Source: Campylobacterales bacterium (GTDB lineage Bacteria > Campylobacterota > Campylobacteria > Campylobacterales > Sulfurovaceae). Taken from it: DNA of 48,862 nucleotides. The stretch lies in the NCBI GenBank assembly GCA_014763895.1, contig JACXUM010000014.1, positions 1 to 48,862 of the forward strand. The letters run 5' to 3'. Position numbers and translations under genes: made by a program. This document shows positions 10,460-36,925 of the stretch, one piece after another. Position 1 is the stretch's first letter. Every line of letters starts with the position of its first letter. The notes below the pieces were generated by a model. That model had not been told where the DNA came from and made no database searches. It saw only the letters and a list, made by a program, of their open reading frames with translations.

Positions 10460-11344
10460 TTAATAGAGTCGATACTGCACGTAAAAAACGATCTTTGTAG
10501 TTTTTGACGGCCTTGGATAGTCTTTATAAGCGATACGTATAACTTCCAGCGTATTGTCATCCAATGCAGCATAGCCGATAGGTCTTCTAAGCCTAAGATT
10601 GGTAATCTCACCGTTTGGATGCAGGTCAAAAGAGACGACATTGGTTCCCTGTTGGCCGGTTCTTACTGCAACTTCGGGATAACCATGATATGTGAGCGTC
10701 ATCTGTGTGATACGATGGATAGCACCGAGGTTTGCACGTATGAACTGTTTTTGCGTGTCGCTGAAGCCGTCAAACTCTTTGCCGTAAAGCTCTTTGATCA
10801 TACGGTCGCCATAACCTGAAGCATTGCTGGCCTTTGGTCTGAACATCGAAGTACCAGAACCCATCAGTGCGTTGGCCAGCGGGTCTTTGGATGCTTTTTG
10901 TTGTGTTTTTCTAGCGGGGACTTTTTTAGGCGGTACGGTTTTTGCGATACGTTGGGATGCTGGTTTTTGGATCGGTTGTTTGACGATCTTTTTTATAATT
11001 TTCTTAACAACCGGTTTCTGGGCAACATGGGTTACGTTATTTTCTTGGATTGATTTTTTGGGAACGTTCACACGTTTTTTATCATCGAGGAGTTTTTTCT
11101 TTGTTAGCGGTTGAACGGGTTTTTGTTGTTTCTGTTTTTGCACGATTGGCTGTGATGGTTGTACGGGTGGCGTAATCATGGGTTTTGGAGCCATAGGCGG
11201 TACAAACTGTGATAGGTTCAGGGCGATCTTCTCTTCTTTTCCGTGACGAGGCGGCAAAAGAGGCTTATGCAATAATAGTACAAGCAGTAGGAGCAGCAAA
11301 AGATGCAACAGTAAAGAAAGCAAAAAGGACTGAACCGTTCTTAT
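10460..11344 (-). CDS. TonB-like energy transducer (apparent ATA start)
   Basis: The protein has a short N-terminus, one strongly hydrophobic leucine-rich helix (about residues 5-25), a long Pro/Lys/Gln-rich periplasmic spacer (about 50-160) and a C-terminal TonB domain (about 210-294) with FDLHPNGEITNLRLRRPIG and final strand IVFYVQYRLY. Such proteins couple the proton-motive force via ExbB/ExbD to outer-membrane receptors; no exbBD is in the window. The open frame runs on upstream into hemL antisense. The best ribosome site, GAGGAG at 11356-11351, sits 6 nt before an in-frame ATA at 11344, giving (M)RTVQSF. No ATG or GTG exists nearby; a TTG at 11323 is the alternative. Start uncertain, identity firm. 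Confidence 0.85.
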   Translation of the reverse strand: MRTVQSFLLSLLLHLLLLLLLVLLLHKPLLPPRHGKEEKIALNLSQFVPPMAPKPMITPPVQPSQPIVQKQKQQKPVQPLTKKKLLDDKKRVNVPKKSIQENNVTHVAQKPVVKKIIKKIVKQPIQKPASQRIAKTVPPKKVPARKTQQKASKDPLANALMGSGTSMFRPKASNASGYGDRMIKELYGKEFDGFSDTQKQFIRANLGAIHRITQMTLTYHGYPEVAVRTGQQGTNVVSFDLHPNGEITNLRLRRPIGYAALDDNTLEVIRIAYKDYPRPSKTTKIVFYVQYRLY

Positions 11345-14326: not shown

Positions 14327-15823
14327 ATGCACTCAGCCTTCTCGACACTTGACTGGATGATCTTTGGTGCATATTTTTTGGTGCTTGCCGTTACATCCAT
14401 TCTGCTTTCTCAAGGGAAGATCAAAACTTCCAAAGAGTACTTCCTTGGCAACAATACCGTACCGATGTACGCGGTGGCGATCTCAGTACTTGCCACTTCA
14501 CAGTCTGCTGCTACTTTTCTGGGAGGGCCTGAGTATTCATACAGTAAAAATTTGACATTCATCGGATTTTATTTTTCTGCTTTTGTGTCTGTATTTTTTG
14601 TAGCCAAAGTATTGATCCCGCGTTTTTATGCTATTCAGGCAACGACAGTCTATGAACTTCTTGAGATACGTTATGGTCAAAGTGCTAAGAAGCAGGCAGG
14701 TGTGATGTTCCTTGTAGGACGTCTTTTTGCCAGCGGGGCACGGCTTTACATCGGGGCTCTTGCTGTTTCGATGATTCTCTTTTTGGATATAACACCATCC
14801 CATGTGGCTATCTCGATAGCGGTTTTGATGTTAGGTGCATTGGCCTATACTTATGTGGGAGGAGTGCGTTCGGTGATCTTTTCGGACATTATCCAGGCAG
14901 CTACCTATATCGGGGCTGGGCTTGCGGTATTTTTTTATCTCTATACTGCACTGGGTACCGATTTGGGGACGATGATCGCTGCACTTGAAGCTGATCATAA
15001 GCTCACGGCGATCGATCTGAGCATGAGCGGTGGATTTAACGTATGGGCGCTCATGAGCGGTTGGCTTCTGCTCAATATCGCAGCCTATGGACTTGATCAG
15101 GATATGACTCAAAGGGCTTTGACCTGTAAGGATAGTAAAGAGGCACAGCGTTCGCTCATCATGTCTATCGTATTGACTATCCCTGTTGCGATCCTCTTTT
15201 TGCTTATCGGTCTTCTTTTATATCTTTATTACAAACATCCAGAACTCTCAAATATTGGCGGTAACATCGAACAGGTATTTGATGGTGAGAAGATCACGAT
15301 CTTTATGTACTACATCCTTCATGAGATGCCTGAAGGACTAAGAGGGCTTGTAACCGTAGGTGCGATCGCAGCAGCACTTTCAAGCGCCAATTCGGTCTTG
15401 GGTGCGATGTCATCGGTAGCGGTAGAAGACCTTTACAGGCCTTGGAAGATGGCAAGGACTTCAGTAGATGAGCTTCATTTTGTGAAAGCAGGGCGTATCA
15501 GCGTCTTGTTGTTTGCGGTATTGCTTTGCTTGATGGCGATGCTCAGTTACTTTTGGCAGCGTTATACTCAGCTGCCTTTGCTCGATTTTGCATTGGGAGT
15601 AATGTCCTTTGCCTATACCGGACTTTTAGGTGTATATGGCGCGGCGATCTTTACAGAGCGGGGCAGTGCGGTAAGTGTACCTTTGGCACTTTTAGGCGGA
15701 TTTTTGACGGTTCTACTATTGCAACCCTATGTAGGCGGGATCAATATCGGGTTTGCCTGGCAGATACTCATCGGTACATTTGTGGCGTTTGGAATTATGA
15801 TGATGGCAAAGGTTGAACAGTAA
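14327..15823 (+). CDS. Sodium:solute symporter (SSS family), candidate murein-sugar importer
   Basis: The 498-aa inner-membrane protein has about 13 membrane spans and SSS family marks: KEYFLGNNTVP near the first span, SATFLGGPEYSY in span 2, YTYVGGVRSVIFSDIIQ, the cytosolic stretch QDMTQRALTCKDSKEAQRS, and LSSANSVLGAMSS in the sodium-site region. SSS proteins carry sugars, amino acids, sialic acid and others with Na+. The substrate cannot be read from sequence, but the gene sits between a periplasmic amidase (3-bp gap) and anmK (no gap), so anhydro-MurNAc or a related amino sugar is the best inference. No ampG is seen here. Confidence 0.88.
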   Translation: MHSAFSTLDWMIFGAYFLVLAVTSILLSQGKIKTSKEYFLGNNTVPMYAVAISVLATSQSAATFLGGPEYSYSKNLTFIGFYFSAFVSVFFVAKVLIPRFYAIQATTVYELLEIRYGQSAKKQAGVMFLVGRLFASGARLYIGALAVSMILFLDITPSHVAISIAVLMLGALAYTYVGGVRSVIFSDIIQAATYIGAGLAVFFYLYTALGTDLGTMIAALEADHKLTAIDLSMSGGFNVWALMSGWLLLNIAAYGLDQDMTQRALTCKDSKEAQRSLIMSIVLTIPVAILFLLIGLLLYLYYKHPELSNIGGNIEQVFDGEKITIFMYYILHEMPEGLRGLVTVGAIAAALSSANSVLGAMSSVAVEDLYRPWKMARTSVDELHFVKAGRISVLLFAVLLCLMAMLSYFWQRYTQLPLLDFALGVMSFAYTGLLGVYGAAIFTERGSAVSVPLALLGGFLTVLLLQPYVGGINIGFAWQILIGTFVAFGIMMMAKVEQ

Positions 15824-33560: not shown

Positions 33561-33773
33561 ATGACGATCTCTGATATAGAATTTGAAATGAGGATCAATG
33601 AGGTGGCAGAAAAAGATATCGTTGAGATAATCGAAATTTGCAAAACTGCCGGGTTTAGTGCAGAAAGGTTGGATGAACAACTTCAAAGACGCGGCTATGA
33701 CAAGATATTTACCGTCAATTATGATGAGTATGATGACGATAAAGATATAGAGTGGGAAGAAGACGATTTTTAA
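33561..33773 (+). CDS. Small acidic protein of unknown function
   Basis: This 70-aa protein (77 aa if it starts at 33540) is very acidic at its end (NYDEYDDDKDIEWEEDDF) and has a helical middle with EIIEICKTAGFSAERLDEQL. No domain is recognised. AGGAG lies 11 nt before the ATG at 33561; the earlier ATG has no site. A TATAAT at 33492-33497 may be its -10. It precedes the retropepsin-like gene by 62 bp on the same strand, so it may be in that operon, but this is only positional. Confidence 0.6.
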   Translation: MTISDIEFEMRINEVAEKDIVEIIEICKTAGFSAERLDEQLQRRGYDKIFTVNYDEYDDDKDIEWEEDDF

Positions 33774-33835: not shown

Positions 33836-34420
33836 ATGATATTTAAAAAAGCGGGAAGAGGGGTATATGTATTTGTGATCGGTATAATGCTGGGCGGGTT
33901 GGCTGTCAATCTGTATGCCGAAAATACACCGAAAGAAGAAAAGGTCAAACTTGCTAAAGAGCGATTCAAAGCTGAAGATCAGGATGAAAGCGAGGTTGAT
34001 ACCAATAAAACCATCATCGGAGCGGTAGAAAAAGTCCGTGTCATTCCCGGTAATTTTGTTATGAAGGCGCGTATCGATACAGGGGCAAGTATGACCTCTA
34101 TCGGTGTGGATAATGATGTAGAGATTGTTAACGAAGATGGTCAGGATTGGGCGTATGTCACGATCAATGACATTAAAATGAAACATAAAGTCGTGAAGTA
34201 TATCTATGTCAAACAGCATGGTTCGGATTCGCATAAGCGTCCGGTGATCCGACTAAAACTCATTTTGGGGAATGTGGCCCAGAATGTCAATGTTACGCTT
34301 GCTGACAGAAGCAACTTTCAGTATCAGCTATTGATCGGAAGAAATCTCTTATATGATCATTTCGCAGTGGATGTAAGCCAAAAATATACTACACCGCCTA
34401 TGGAATACAAGGAAAAATAA
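33836..34420 (+). CDS. Retropepsin-like aspartic protease (COG4067, formerly 'Zn protease')
   Basis: The 194-aa protein has an N-terminal membrane anchor or signal (about residues 10-28, VYVFVIGIMLGGLAVNLYA), then a charged linker and a retropepsin-like domain (about 60-190) with the aspartic-protease motif IDTGASMTSI (about 82-91). The C-terminal QLLIGRNLLYDHFAVDV is the family's second hallmark. It should act in the periplasm, perhaps as a dimer. It is the first of three tightly linked genes, overlapping the next by 1 bp, that combine protease, 7TM transglutaminase-like protein and ATP-grasp ligase. Confidence 0.85.
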   Translation: MIFKKAGRGVYVFVIGIMLGGLAVNLYAENTPKEEKVKLAKERFKAEDQDESEVDTNKTIIGAVEKVRVIPGNFVMKARIDTGASMTSIGVDNDVEIVNEDGQDWAYVTINDIKMKHKVVKYIYVKQHGSDSHKRPVIRLKLILGNVAQNVNVTLADRSNFQYQLLIGRNLLYDHFAVDVSQKYTTPPMEYKEK

Positions 34421-35976
34421 TGTCCTCAAAACTACAGGTTTTTGCGATCGCTTTTGTATTGGCCGCACTGGGTTTTTTTGTAACTTGGTACAAAATAGTC
34501 TATCTTGACATACCGATTACACCGAATGAAAGACAATCGTTGTTTACGATCAGTGCCGAGATCACACTGACGGGGGATAATGCTCCTGCCCATATCTCTA
34601 TGGCATTGCCAAGTCCTCAAACGGGAATGAAGATCATATCTCAGGAAAGTGAATCTGGTGAGTTCGGATATACGATTACAAAAACGGCAGAGGGTGATCG
34701 TGCCGAATGGGCTAAAAGAACGGTAGAAGGCGATGCCAATATTTTTTATAAGATCACTGTTGTTCCCGAACCTTTTTATAAAGTATTGACTGATGAAAGC
34801 ATCATTGTGCCCGAAGAACCAAATCAGATCGTAGAACCTACGGAAGAAGGTGTCCTTTCACTATGGGAAGAGTCAGACAGAAGTGCGGCTTTAACTTTGA
34901 TAGATACCGTCCGAAAAAGATCTGCAGACCCTATCAGTTTTACTGCAGAGCTGATCTGGCAGTTTAACGCTAAACAGCCCGTCGAATCGGTTTCTGCACT
35001 GCTCAATATGAAGGGCCAGAATAAACTCTCTCTAATTACGACTTTATTGGACCAGGAAAATATTCAGCATAGAAAAGTGAGGGGTATTTACCTTGAAGAT
35101 GGACAGAAAGGCCGTCGTTTGACTACAATGATTGAGGTCAAAGATGGAAATGACTGGGAATTTTTCGACCTGGAACAGGGGCATATTGTCAAGCCGGCTA
35201 ATTTCTTTGTTTGGCAGCGTGGAAACGAAACCCTATTTAAAACAAAAGGCTTAGCCAAATCCAAATTGCGTTTTGCGGTTACGGAAACACAGGTTCCTGT
35301 TTCCTCTTTAGCTCAAGCGAACAAGCTGGCTTCCAATAGCGAATTCTTAAATTTTTCACTTTATACCCTTCCAAGCTCACAGCAGAATGCTTTTAAACAG
35401 ATACTGCTTGTGCCGATGGGTGTACTGATAGTAGTTATCTTGCGTATCTTGATCGGAATCAGGACGATGGGAACATTTATGCCCGTACTTTTTGCTTTGG
35501 CATTTATCCAGACAACGCTTGTCAGCGGTTTGATCATGTTCTTTGTGATCGTATTTTCTGGTCTCTTTATTCGTTTTTATCTCTCAAGATTGAGGCTTTT
35601 GCTTGTTGCAAGAATTTCTGCAGTGATCATCGTGGTGATCGCGATTATGTCAATTATGAGTATCGTGAGCTATAAGCTCGGTATTACACAGGTACTCACG
35701 ATTACATTTTTCCCAATGATCATCCTCTCATGGACGATCGAACGTATGTCAATTCTCTGGGAAGAAGAGGGTGGCAGAGAGGTGATGATACAAGGCGGCG
35801 GTTCGTTGATCGTTGCGGTCTTGGCATATTTTGCAATGGATAATGAACTGGTAATGTATCTTTCTTTTACGTTCCCGGAACTTTTGTTGGTGATCTTGGC
35901 AATGATTATTTTGATTGGGCGCTATACCGGTTACCGAATAACTGAATTACTGCGTTTTGCACCACTTGGACGTTAA
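34420..35976 (+). CDS. Transglutaminase-like domain fused to seven membrane helices (UUP1-type)
   Basis: The 518-aa protein has one N-terminal membrane helix, a large extracytoplasmic domain (about residues 30-300) that resembles an inactive transglutaminase-like domain, and about seven membrane helices (about 325-505) starting LLVPMGVLIVVILRILIGIRTMGTFMPVLFALAF. The GIRTMGTFMPVLFALAF segment is characteristic. No Cys-His-Asp triad can be seen. Its role is unknown; it is found with retropepsin-like and ATP-grasp genes. Start TAATG overlaps the protease stop by 1 bp, and the ligase ATG is 2 bp beyond its own stop. Confidence 0.82.
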   Translation: MSSKLQVFAIAFVLAALGFFVTWYKIVYLDIPITPNERQSLFTISAEITLTGDNAPAHISMALPSPQTGMKIISQESESGEFGYTITKTAEGDRAEWAKRTVEGDANIFYKITVVPEPFYKVLTDESIIVPEEPNQIVEPTEEGVLSLWEESDRSAALTLIDTVRKRSADPISFTAELIWQFNAKQPVESVSALLNMKGQNKLSLITTLLDQENIQHRKVRGIYLEDGQKGRRLTTMIEVKDGNDWEFFDLEQGHIVKPANFFVWQRGNETLFKTKGLAKSKLRFAVTETQVPVSSLAQANKLASNSEFLNFSLYTLPSSQQNAFKQILLVPMGVLIVVILRILIGIRTMGTFMPVLFALAFIQTTLVSGLIMFFVIVFSGLFIRFYLSRLRLLLVARISAVIIVVIAIMSIMSIVSYKLGITQVLTITFFPMIILSWTIERMSILWEEEGGREVMIQGGGSLIVAVLAYFAMDNELVMYLSFTFPELLLVILAMIILIGRYTGYRITELLRFAPLGR

Positions 35977-35977
35977 A

Positions 35978-36925
35978 ATGAGTTGGATCGCGTCCATACA
36001 AAAACTGAAAGAAAAAGGTGTGATCGGTATGAATTACCGAAACATCGAACTCATCGGTAGATATAACTCCAGGGATAAATATCCCCTTGTGGATAATAAA
36101 TTGATCACAAAAAAGATCGCGCAGGAGGCCGGTATCGCTGTTACTGAGCTCTATGCCAAGATCGAATGGCAGTCAGAGCTAAACAGGCTCCACGATATCC
36201 TGGCACCTTATGAGAACTTCGCAATCAAACCCGTTCACGGAAGCGGAGGTAAAGGGATCATTGTGATCACCCACCGGGAAGGGGATGTCTTTATCAAAGC
36301 CAATGGCGAATCGATGACATTGTTGCAAATACGTGATCACATCTCCAATATCCTAAGCGGTCTGTACTCGTTAGGAGGACGTTATGATGTTGCCATTATT
36401 GAAAAACTGGTTGTCTTTGATCCGGTTTTCCAAAACTTCAGTTATGAAGGGGTGCCTGATATTCGTATCATCGTCTATAAAGGATACCCGTTGATGGCAA
36501 TGATGCGCTGTCCTACTCATCAAAGTAACGGGAAGGCAAACCTTCATCAGGGTGCTGTTGGTGTAGGTATCGATATCGGTACTGGAAGGGCCCTCAATGC
36601 GGTCATGCACAACCATCCTATCCAGACACATCCCAATACTAAACATGATTTTGCCGAACTCCAGATACCCCAGTGGGAAAAAATTCTTCATATTGCTGCA
36701 ACATGCTATGATATGACCGGGCTTGGATACTTAGGAACGGACATTGTCTTTGATGAGAATTTCGGACCGCTCTTGCTCGAACTTAATGCGCGTCCCGGAC
36801 TTGCGATCCAGATTGCCAATGATAAAGGCGAACGCCATAGAGTTGAACGTGTTGATAAAGAAAAAGAGGGGAAAAGCGTTGAAGAACGTGTACGCTTTAG
36901 TATGGACGTTCTTAGTAAAATATAA
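35978..36925 (+). CDS. ATP-grasp ligase, alpha-L-glutamate ligase-like (RimK-related)
   Basis: The 315-aa cytosolic protein has the ATP-grasp loop KPVHGSGGKGIIVI (about residues 77-90) and the metal-site LELNARPGLAIQIAN (about 268-282); the arginine and acidic residues fit the RimK-like group, which links amino acids through carboxylate-amine ligation. The first residues (NYRNIELIGRYNSRDKYPLVDNK) are the pre-grasp region. Its substrate is unknown. An upstream in-frame TTG at 35957 is weaker than the ATG at 35978. It completes the three-gene operon with protease and 7TM protein. Confidence 0.88.
   Translation: MSWIASIQKLKEKGVIGMNYRNIELIGRYNSRDKYPLVDNKLITKKIAQEAGIAVTELYAKIEWQSELNRLHDILAPYENFAIKPVHGSGGKGIIVITHREGDVFIKANGESMTLLQIRDHISNILSGLYSLGGRYDVAIIEKLVVFDPVFQNFSYEGVPDIRIIVYKGYPLMAMMRCPTHQSNGKANLHQGAVGVGIDIGTGRALNAVMHNHPIQTHPNTKHDFAELQIPQWEKILHIAATCYDMTGLGYLGTDIVFDENFGPLLLELNARPGLAIQIANDKGERHRVERVDKEKEGKSVEERVRFSMDVLSKI

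Follow-up and report, generated by a model that had tools for sequence, protein, structure and literature searches.

A distant rloABC operon in a Campylobacterota genome and a proposed glutamate-chain chemistry at the cell envelope

The window analysed here, a stretch of 48,862 nucleotides corresponding to contig C12 of a 1.77 Mb Campylobacterota genome (47 contigs, 99.84% complete), carries three tightly packed genes for a retropepsin-like protease, a membrane protein with a transglutaminase-like domain and an ATP-grasp ligase, preceded by a small gene for an acidic protein (Table 1). The first two genes of the trio overlap by one base, in the sequence TAATG, and the second and third are separated by a single base. 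The original prediction had recognized the three-gene set, its 1-bp overlap and its protein families, all of which are confirmed by gene calls, Pfam and TIGR02291; its 2-bp gap is corrected here to one base. For the ligase gene, a longer TTG start at 35957 appears in the open reading frame list, and the ATG at 35978 was taken. Pfam assigns the protease to PF05618 (E 1.8e-23), which is a family of retropepsin-like aspartic proteases despite its old zinc-protease name, the N-terminal part of the membrane protein to PF14400 (E 2.1e-33), and the ligase to PF14397 (E 1.8e-94); the ligase also scores 441.7 bits against TIGR02291, above the cut-off of 314.2.

Table 1 Positions of the operon, its main features and the neighbouring small gene in the window
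Feature	Position	Strand	Description
small acidic protein gene	33561-33773	+	70 aa; separated from rloA by 62 bases; outside the published operon
rloA homologue	33836-34420	+	194 aa, ATG start; PF05618 retropepsin-like aspartic protease, predicted to be secreted
IDTGAS active-site motif of RloA	34073..34090	+	residues 80-85; catalytic Asp is residue 81
rloB homologue	34420-35976	+	518 aa, ATG start; PF14400 and PF14402
RloB membrane domain (PF14402)	35230..35967	+	residues 271-516, E 1.9e-100
rloC homologue	35978-36925	+	315 aa, ATG start; PF14397 ATP-grasp ligase, predicted to be cytosolic

An operon of this composition has already been described in Pseudomonas aeruginosa, where Lormand et al. 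2025 named it rloABC (PMC12239564), and the window operon is a distant member of that system. Gene order and all three domain architectures are shared, namely a putatively secreted retropepsin with basic substrate-contact residues, an inactive transglutaminase joined to a membrane domain, and an ATP-grasp ligase; the window operon differs in its distant sequence, its Campylobacterota host and an RloA without a lipobox. Because family, gene order and linkage agree, we regard the assignment to rloABC as close to certain. The narrow NCBIfam models NF052262, NF052263, NF052264 and NF052267 gave 62.8, 69.8, 67.5 and 319 bits, none of which reaches the NCBI naming cut-offs (280, 250, 210 and 900 bits, respectively). 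Such cut-offs pick out proteins close to the founding members and do not define the system, as other rloABC loci miss them too: six RloBs scored 300-390 bits, below 900, and three RloAs also fell below their cut-off. Transposon hits have been reported in the operon PA1768-PA1767-PA1766 (PMC7314104), and the descriptions given there for these genes fit rloA, rloB and rloC.

Linkage of the three genes was surveyed in 84 loci for which RloB was the sole selection criterion: that of the window, three found in a scan of 249 genomes of the phylum, and the best 80 of 529 relatives in the genome_contigs collection. rloA lies directly upstream of rloB in 83 of these loci and rloC directly downstream in all 84; in the one exception, the locus sequence begins 426 bases before rloB. 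The conserved linkage anticipated by the original prediction is borne out by this survey and is not due to chance. The loci come from hosts such as Campylobacterota, Nitrosomonas, Scalindua and numerous Gammaproteobacteria, with the nearest named loci by RloB (~60-67% identity) found in Sulfurovum and Sulfurimonas MAGs. RloB is patchy in Campylobacterota: the phylum scan detected it in 4 of 249 genomes, all with PF05618 less than 1 kb from the PF14402 match, and did not find it in the four other sampled genomes of the window's genus. Genes flanking rloABC are lineage-specific, and none is conserved alongside it across lineages. Two related loci carry a gene that resembles polyphosphate kinase 2 by eye 3' of rloC (L006, 10488-11303; L007, 10505-11314). 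In a joint tree, 15 Campylobacterota loci and one from a MAG labelled only 'bacterium' form a single clade (support 0.999), as they do in the RloB tree (1.0); in a tree of RloC only, Campylobacterota do not form one clade and a hahellacean locus joins them at support 0.14. Recent import from Gammaproteobacteria was considered and is unsupported, given an operon GC (0.427) near that of the window (0.418) and the Campylobacterota clade in the joint and RloB trees.

According to Lormand et al., RloA of P. aeruginosa cuts chains of 8 or 10 glutamates in vitro and leaves chains of 6 or fewer uncut (PMC12239564). Solved relatives of the window RloA are present in the PDB as 9g59, 9g58 and 2pma, the first two being the RloA structures of the same report, in which octaglutamate was modelled against K46, R92, R114 and R137, with asymmetric contacts to K95, K97 and K109 (PMC12239564). 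To transfer the published numbering to the window protein, we counted residues off from the catalytic Asp in the alignment with 9g59. This places K46, R92, R114 and R137 at R79, K121, R135 and R158, and K97 at K126; all five positions are thus basic in the window RloA. RloA sequences are otherwise loose, with a mean column identity of 27%. Among 34 aligned RloAs, the catalytic D81 is kept in every one, arginine occupies position 135 in 33 and position 158 in 32, and either arginine or lysine is found at position 79 in 32 and at position 121 in 29. The window protein has a hydrophobic N-terminus and is predicted from its sequence to be secreted and periplasmic; it has no lipobox, a feature found in 64 of 83 RloAs.

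Several RloAs depart from this plan. In four loci from Haliea and Kineobactrum, the active-site loop reads DTA instead of DTG. Seven Endozoicomonas RloAs are 384-407 aa long, contain two DTGA motifs each and score about twice as high as other RloAs; they look like naturally fused dimers, with two retropepsin domains on a single polypeptide. An Arcobacter MAG (L034) has a second PF05618-like gene immediately 3' of rloC (10470-11027), and in locus L006 a second protease matching the RloA profile, probably rimB, lies on the opposite strand 3.9 kb downstream of rloC (14380-14865).

RloC retains the essential residues expected of the ATP-grasp ligase that the original prediction had called: all 40 of the RloC sequences compared share K41, K84, E142, R163, R177, N188, H190, D255, E268, N270 and R272, and the DIR...NLHQG motif, which aligns with DIR...NLHRG of RimK, is kept as well. 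The site therefore appears active as judged from alignment. The predicted structure (mean pLDDT 92.5) is best matched by ArgX-LysW (Z 17.3 over 215 residues, 18% identity), followed by RimK (16.6) and cyanophycin synthetase (16.0), and Foldseek also ranks ArgX and RimK first. RloC looks like a glutamate ligase, and it is predicted to be cytosolic. Its glutamates might be attached to a specific envelope acceptor such as a lipid-linked wall precursor, a lipoprotein or a polysaccharide, with RloB flipping or presenting the product and RloA removing the tail. The Pfam name of the RloC domain, sugar-transfer associated ATP-grasp, is in keeping with such an acceptor, as is the top ArgX match, which contains the carrier protein LysW and Glu; cell-shape, beta-lactam and biofilm phenotypes described for P. 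aeruginosa rlo genes (PMC12239564) would also be accommodated. However, RloA requires about eight glutamates in a row in vitro according to the same report, and no acceptor is known, so that we consider this a tentative alternative that is possible yet somewhat unlikely.

In RloB, the predicted structure (mean pLDDT 86.0) consists of one N-terminal membrane helix, a beta-sandwich and transglutaminase-like domain predicted to lie in the periplasm, and the helical membrane domain of the 7TM type. Residues 39-293 of the model match the putative cysteine protease 3isr (Z 13.1 over 218 residues, 13% identity), but an active transglutaminase was set aside: no alignment column holds Cys in at least 10 of 51 RloB sequences, and there is therefore no conserved cysteine chemistry. 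The 78 positions conserved at 95% or more are distributed very unevenly, as 68 fall within residues 313-518 and the other 10 within residues 1-312. Since conservation is concentrated in the membrane domain, RloB probably does its work in the membrane, and the receptor-like membrane protein of the original prediction does not fit this pattern. With the whole-protein model as query, Foldseek was confident only for the soluble 3isr fold, and VIA-align returned RND pumps and a Na+-NQR subunit for the membrane domain at noise level (Z 6.8 or less); neither search gave a convincing match to a solved transporter. In Shewanella, loss of an inactive-transglutaminase gene is reported to lead to vesicle overproduction (PMC12096838).

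Genetic evidence from P. aeruginosa (PMC12239564) connects the three proteins. Three redundant RloAs are required there in low salt, and growth of the triple rloA mutant in low salt is fully rescued by deletion of rloB or rloC, suggesting that RloB and RloC produce what RloA must remove. An envelope peptide role, as first proposed, therefore stands, whereas the accompanying statement that the substrate was wholly unestablished does not, as substrate and phenotype have been published in part for P. aeruginosa. The signalling circuit that had also been suggested fares less well. In such a circuit, the periplasmic domain of RloB would sense an envelope signal and control RloC, and RloA would cut RloB or its ligand; a polytopic RloB with a periplasmic domain free of conserved cysteine would suit a sensor, and Lormand et al. 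state that rlo genes are under VxrB control in Vibrio cholerae (PMC12239564). But RloB is conserved in its membrane domain and not in its periplasmic domain, and the loss-of-function logic fits a source and a remover, with RloB and RloC placed upstream by the published genetics. We regard signalling as improbable. The same rescue bears on a scavenging pathway in which RloA cuts external acidic peptides, RloB imports the fragments and RloC uses them. A protease, a membrane protein and a ligase are compatible in principle with this arrangement, but rescue of protease loss by loss of RloB or RloC would be unexpected under it and yet is what P. aeruginosa displays; we consider scavenging very improbable.

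As RloC is predicted to be cytosolic and looks like a glutamate ligase, RloB spans the membrane, and RloA is predicted to be periplasmic and belongs to a family that cuts glutamate chains, the shortest account is one of synthesis, export and trimming. RloC, resembling RimK and ArgX and docked at the cytosolic face of RloB, would join glutamates using ATP; the membrane domain of RloB would move the nascent poly-alpha-glutamate, or else a carrier bearing glutamates, into the periplasm; the inactive transglutaminase-fold domain of RloB may hold the chain as it emerges; and RloA, as a dimeric periplasmic retropepsin, would trim it to length. We give about an even chance to the proposal that what RloA clips is a poly-glutamate chain or a glutamylated envelope product, synthesized and exported by RloB and RloC. 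No run of eight GAR codons occurs in the window genome, so a Glu8 target of this kind is not genome-encoded, in line with a non-ribosomal substrate. OpgG was not found in the genome either, which makes it probable that periplasmic glucans of the usual type are lacking. The missing GAR run, the missing OpgG and the genetics are each compatible with synthesis, export and trimming, and are proof of no step. In the open-licence literature, we found no report of RloC activity, RloB transport, an in vivo product or periplasmic polyglutamate. A functional parallel would be PgsBCA, the membrane-bound synthase and exporter of poly-gamma-glutamate, which is accompanied by a depolymerase; its ligase belongs to another family and its product has a gamma linkage.

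RimK is the closest studied enzyme to RloC. It makes poly-alpha-L-glutamate, and its overproduction is reported to be harmful to cells. ArgX and LysX, which act with the carrier LysW, include the closest solved structure to the RloC model but have no membrane partner. Together with RimB, RimK forms the ribosomal S6 glutamylation system (PMC11957791), which like RloABC couples a retropepsin to an ATP-grasp ligase acting on polyglutamate; unlike RloABC, it is cytosolic and has no RloB. The pre-ATP-grasp domain Rimk_N (PF18030), a feature of RimK, was not matched in RloC by the Pfam search but was found in RimK of the same genome (E 1.7e-37), and the hydrophobic N-terminus of the window RloA likewise sets the operon apart from the RimB-RimK class. 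Lacking Rimk_N, RloC may need a partner, and rloB always adjoins rloC. RimB-RimK is also present in most RloABC organisms, according to PMC12239564. The window genome is no exception, having its own pair on contig C22 (L095, 3757-7383); it thus has one RloA and a cytosolic-type RimB, compared with three RloAs in P. aeruginosa. In two other Campylobacterota genomes, RimK is present and the sole PF05618 protein is RloA, so RloABC does not require RimB. The C22 pair is adjoined by an AstE/AspA-type enzyme and an M42 glutamyl-aminopeptidase-like protein, and similar peptidases (judged by eye) recur near rimBK or the small acidic gene in other loci.

The small acidic protein encoded ahead of rloA has no Pfam or NCBIfam match, but its gene keeps recurring company. 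Relatives adjoin rimB-rimK in five loci, precede a SnoaL-like gene and rimB-rimK in another, and precede a SnoaL-like gene and rloABC in two more; in three Campylobacterota genomes of one genus, the gene is divergent from rimB. Leaving aside the window's own genome, there were 10 family hits; the loci of eight were examined, and rimB-rimK adjoins the small gene in six of them. The other two lack an adjoining rimB-rimK, one of these reaching a contig end. In the window genome itself, no small acidic gene was picked up at the C22 rim locus, and the gene precedes rloABC instead. Across the 249 genomes of the phylum, PF05618 occurs in 25, the small acidic gene in 33 (one hit being weak, with internal stops) and both in 19 (Fisher p 7e-15, with relatedness ignored); the two lie within ~1.1 kb of each other in 7 of these 19 genomes, or in 5 of 10 genera. 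The small gene occurs in fourteen genomes that lack PF05618, six of which have no strong RimK match either, so the gene is not strictly tied to rim or rlo. The neighbourhood association with rim and rlo loci is nevertheless real in several lineages, and the small gene is a possible accessory gene of rloABC. That its product could be a carrier is speculation.

In a more specific combined reading, RloB-RloC would synthesize poly-alpha-L-glutamate and export it to the periplasm, where this anionic peptide polymer, kept trimmed by RloA, would fill the role of osmoregulated periplasmic glucans. In Campylobacterota, the small acidic protein, joined in certain lineages by a SnoaL-like partner, would take part in the same glutamate-chain chemistry, perhaps as an acceptor or regulator. 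As a whole, we consider this combination unlikely and offer it as a doubtful extension of the synthesis, export and trimming scheme.

In P. aeruginosa, survival in low salt, cell shape, biofilm and tolerance of antibiotics all depend on the rlo operon. The three genes have also stayed together in a distant lineage whose genomes are compact, as a single set of retropepsin, RloB and RloC. Persistence in this form, with no other gene conserved alongside across lineages, lends support to a reaction that the three proteins carry out by themselves. If that reaction does yield an exported glutamate chain, it would represent a new kind of envelope polymer.
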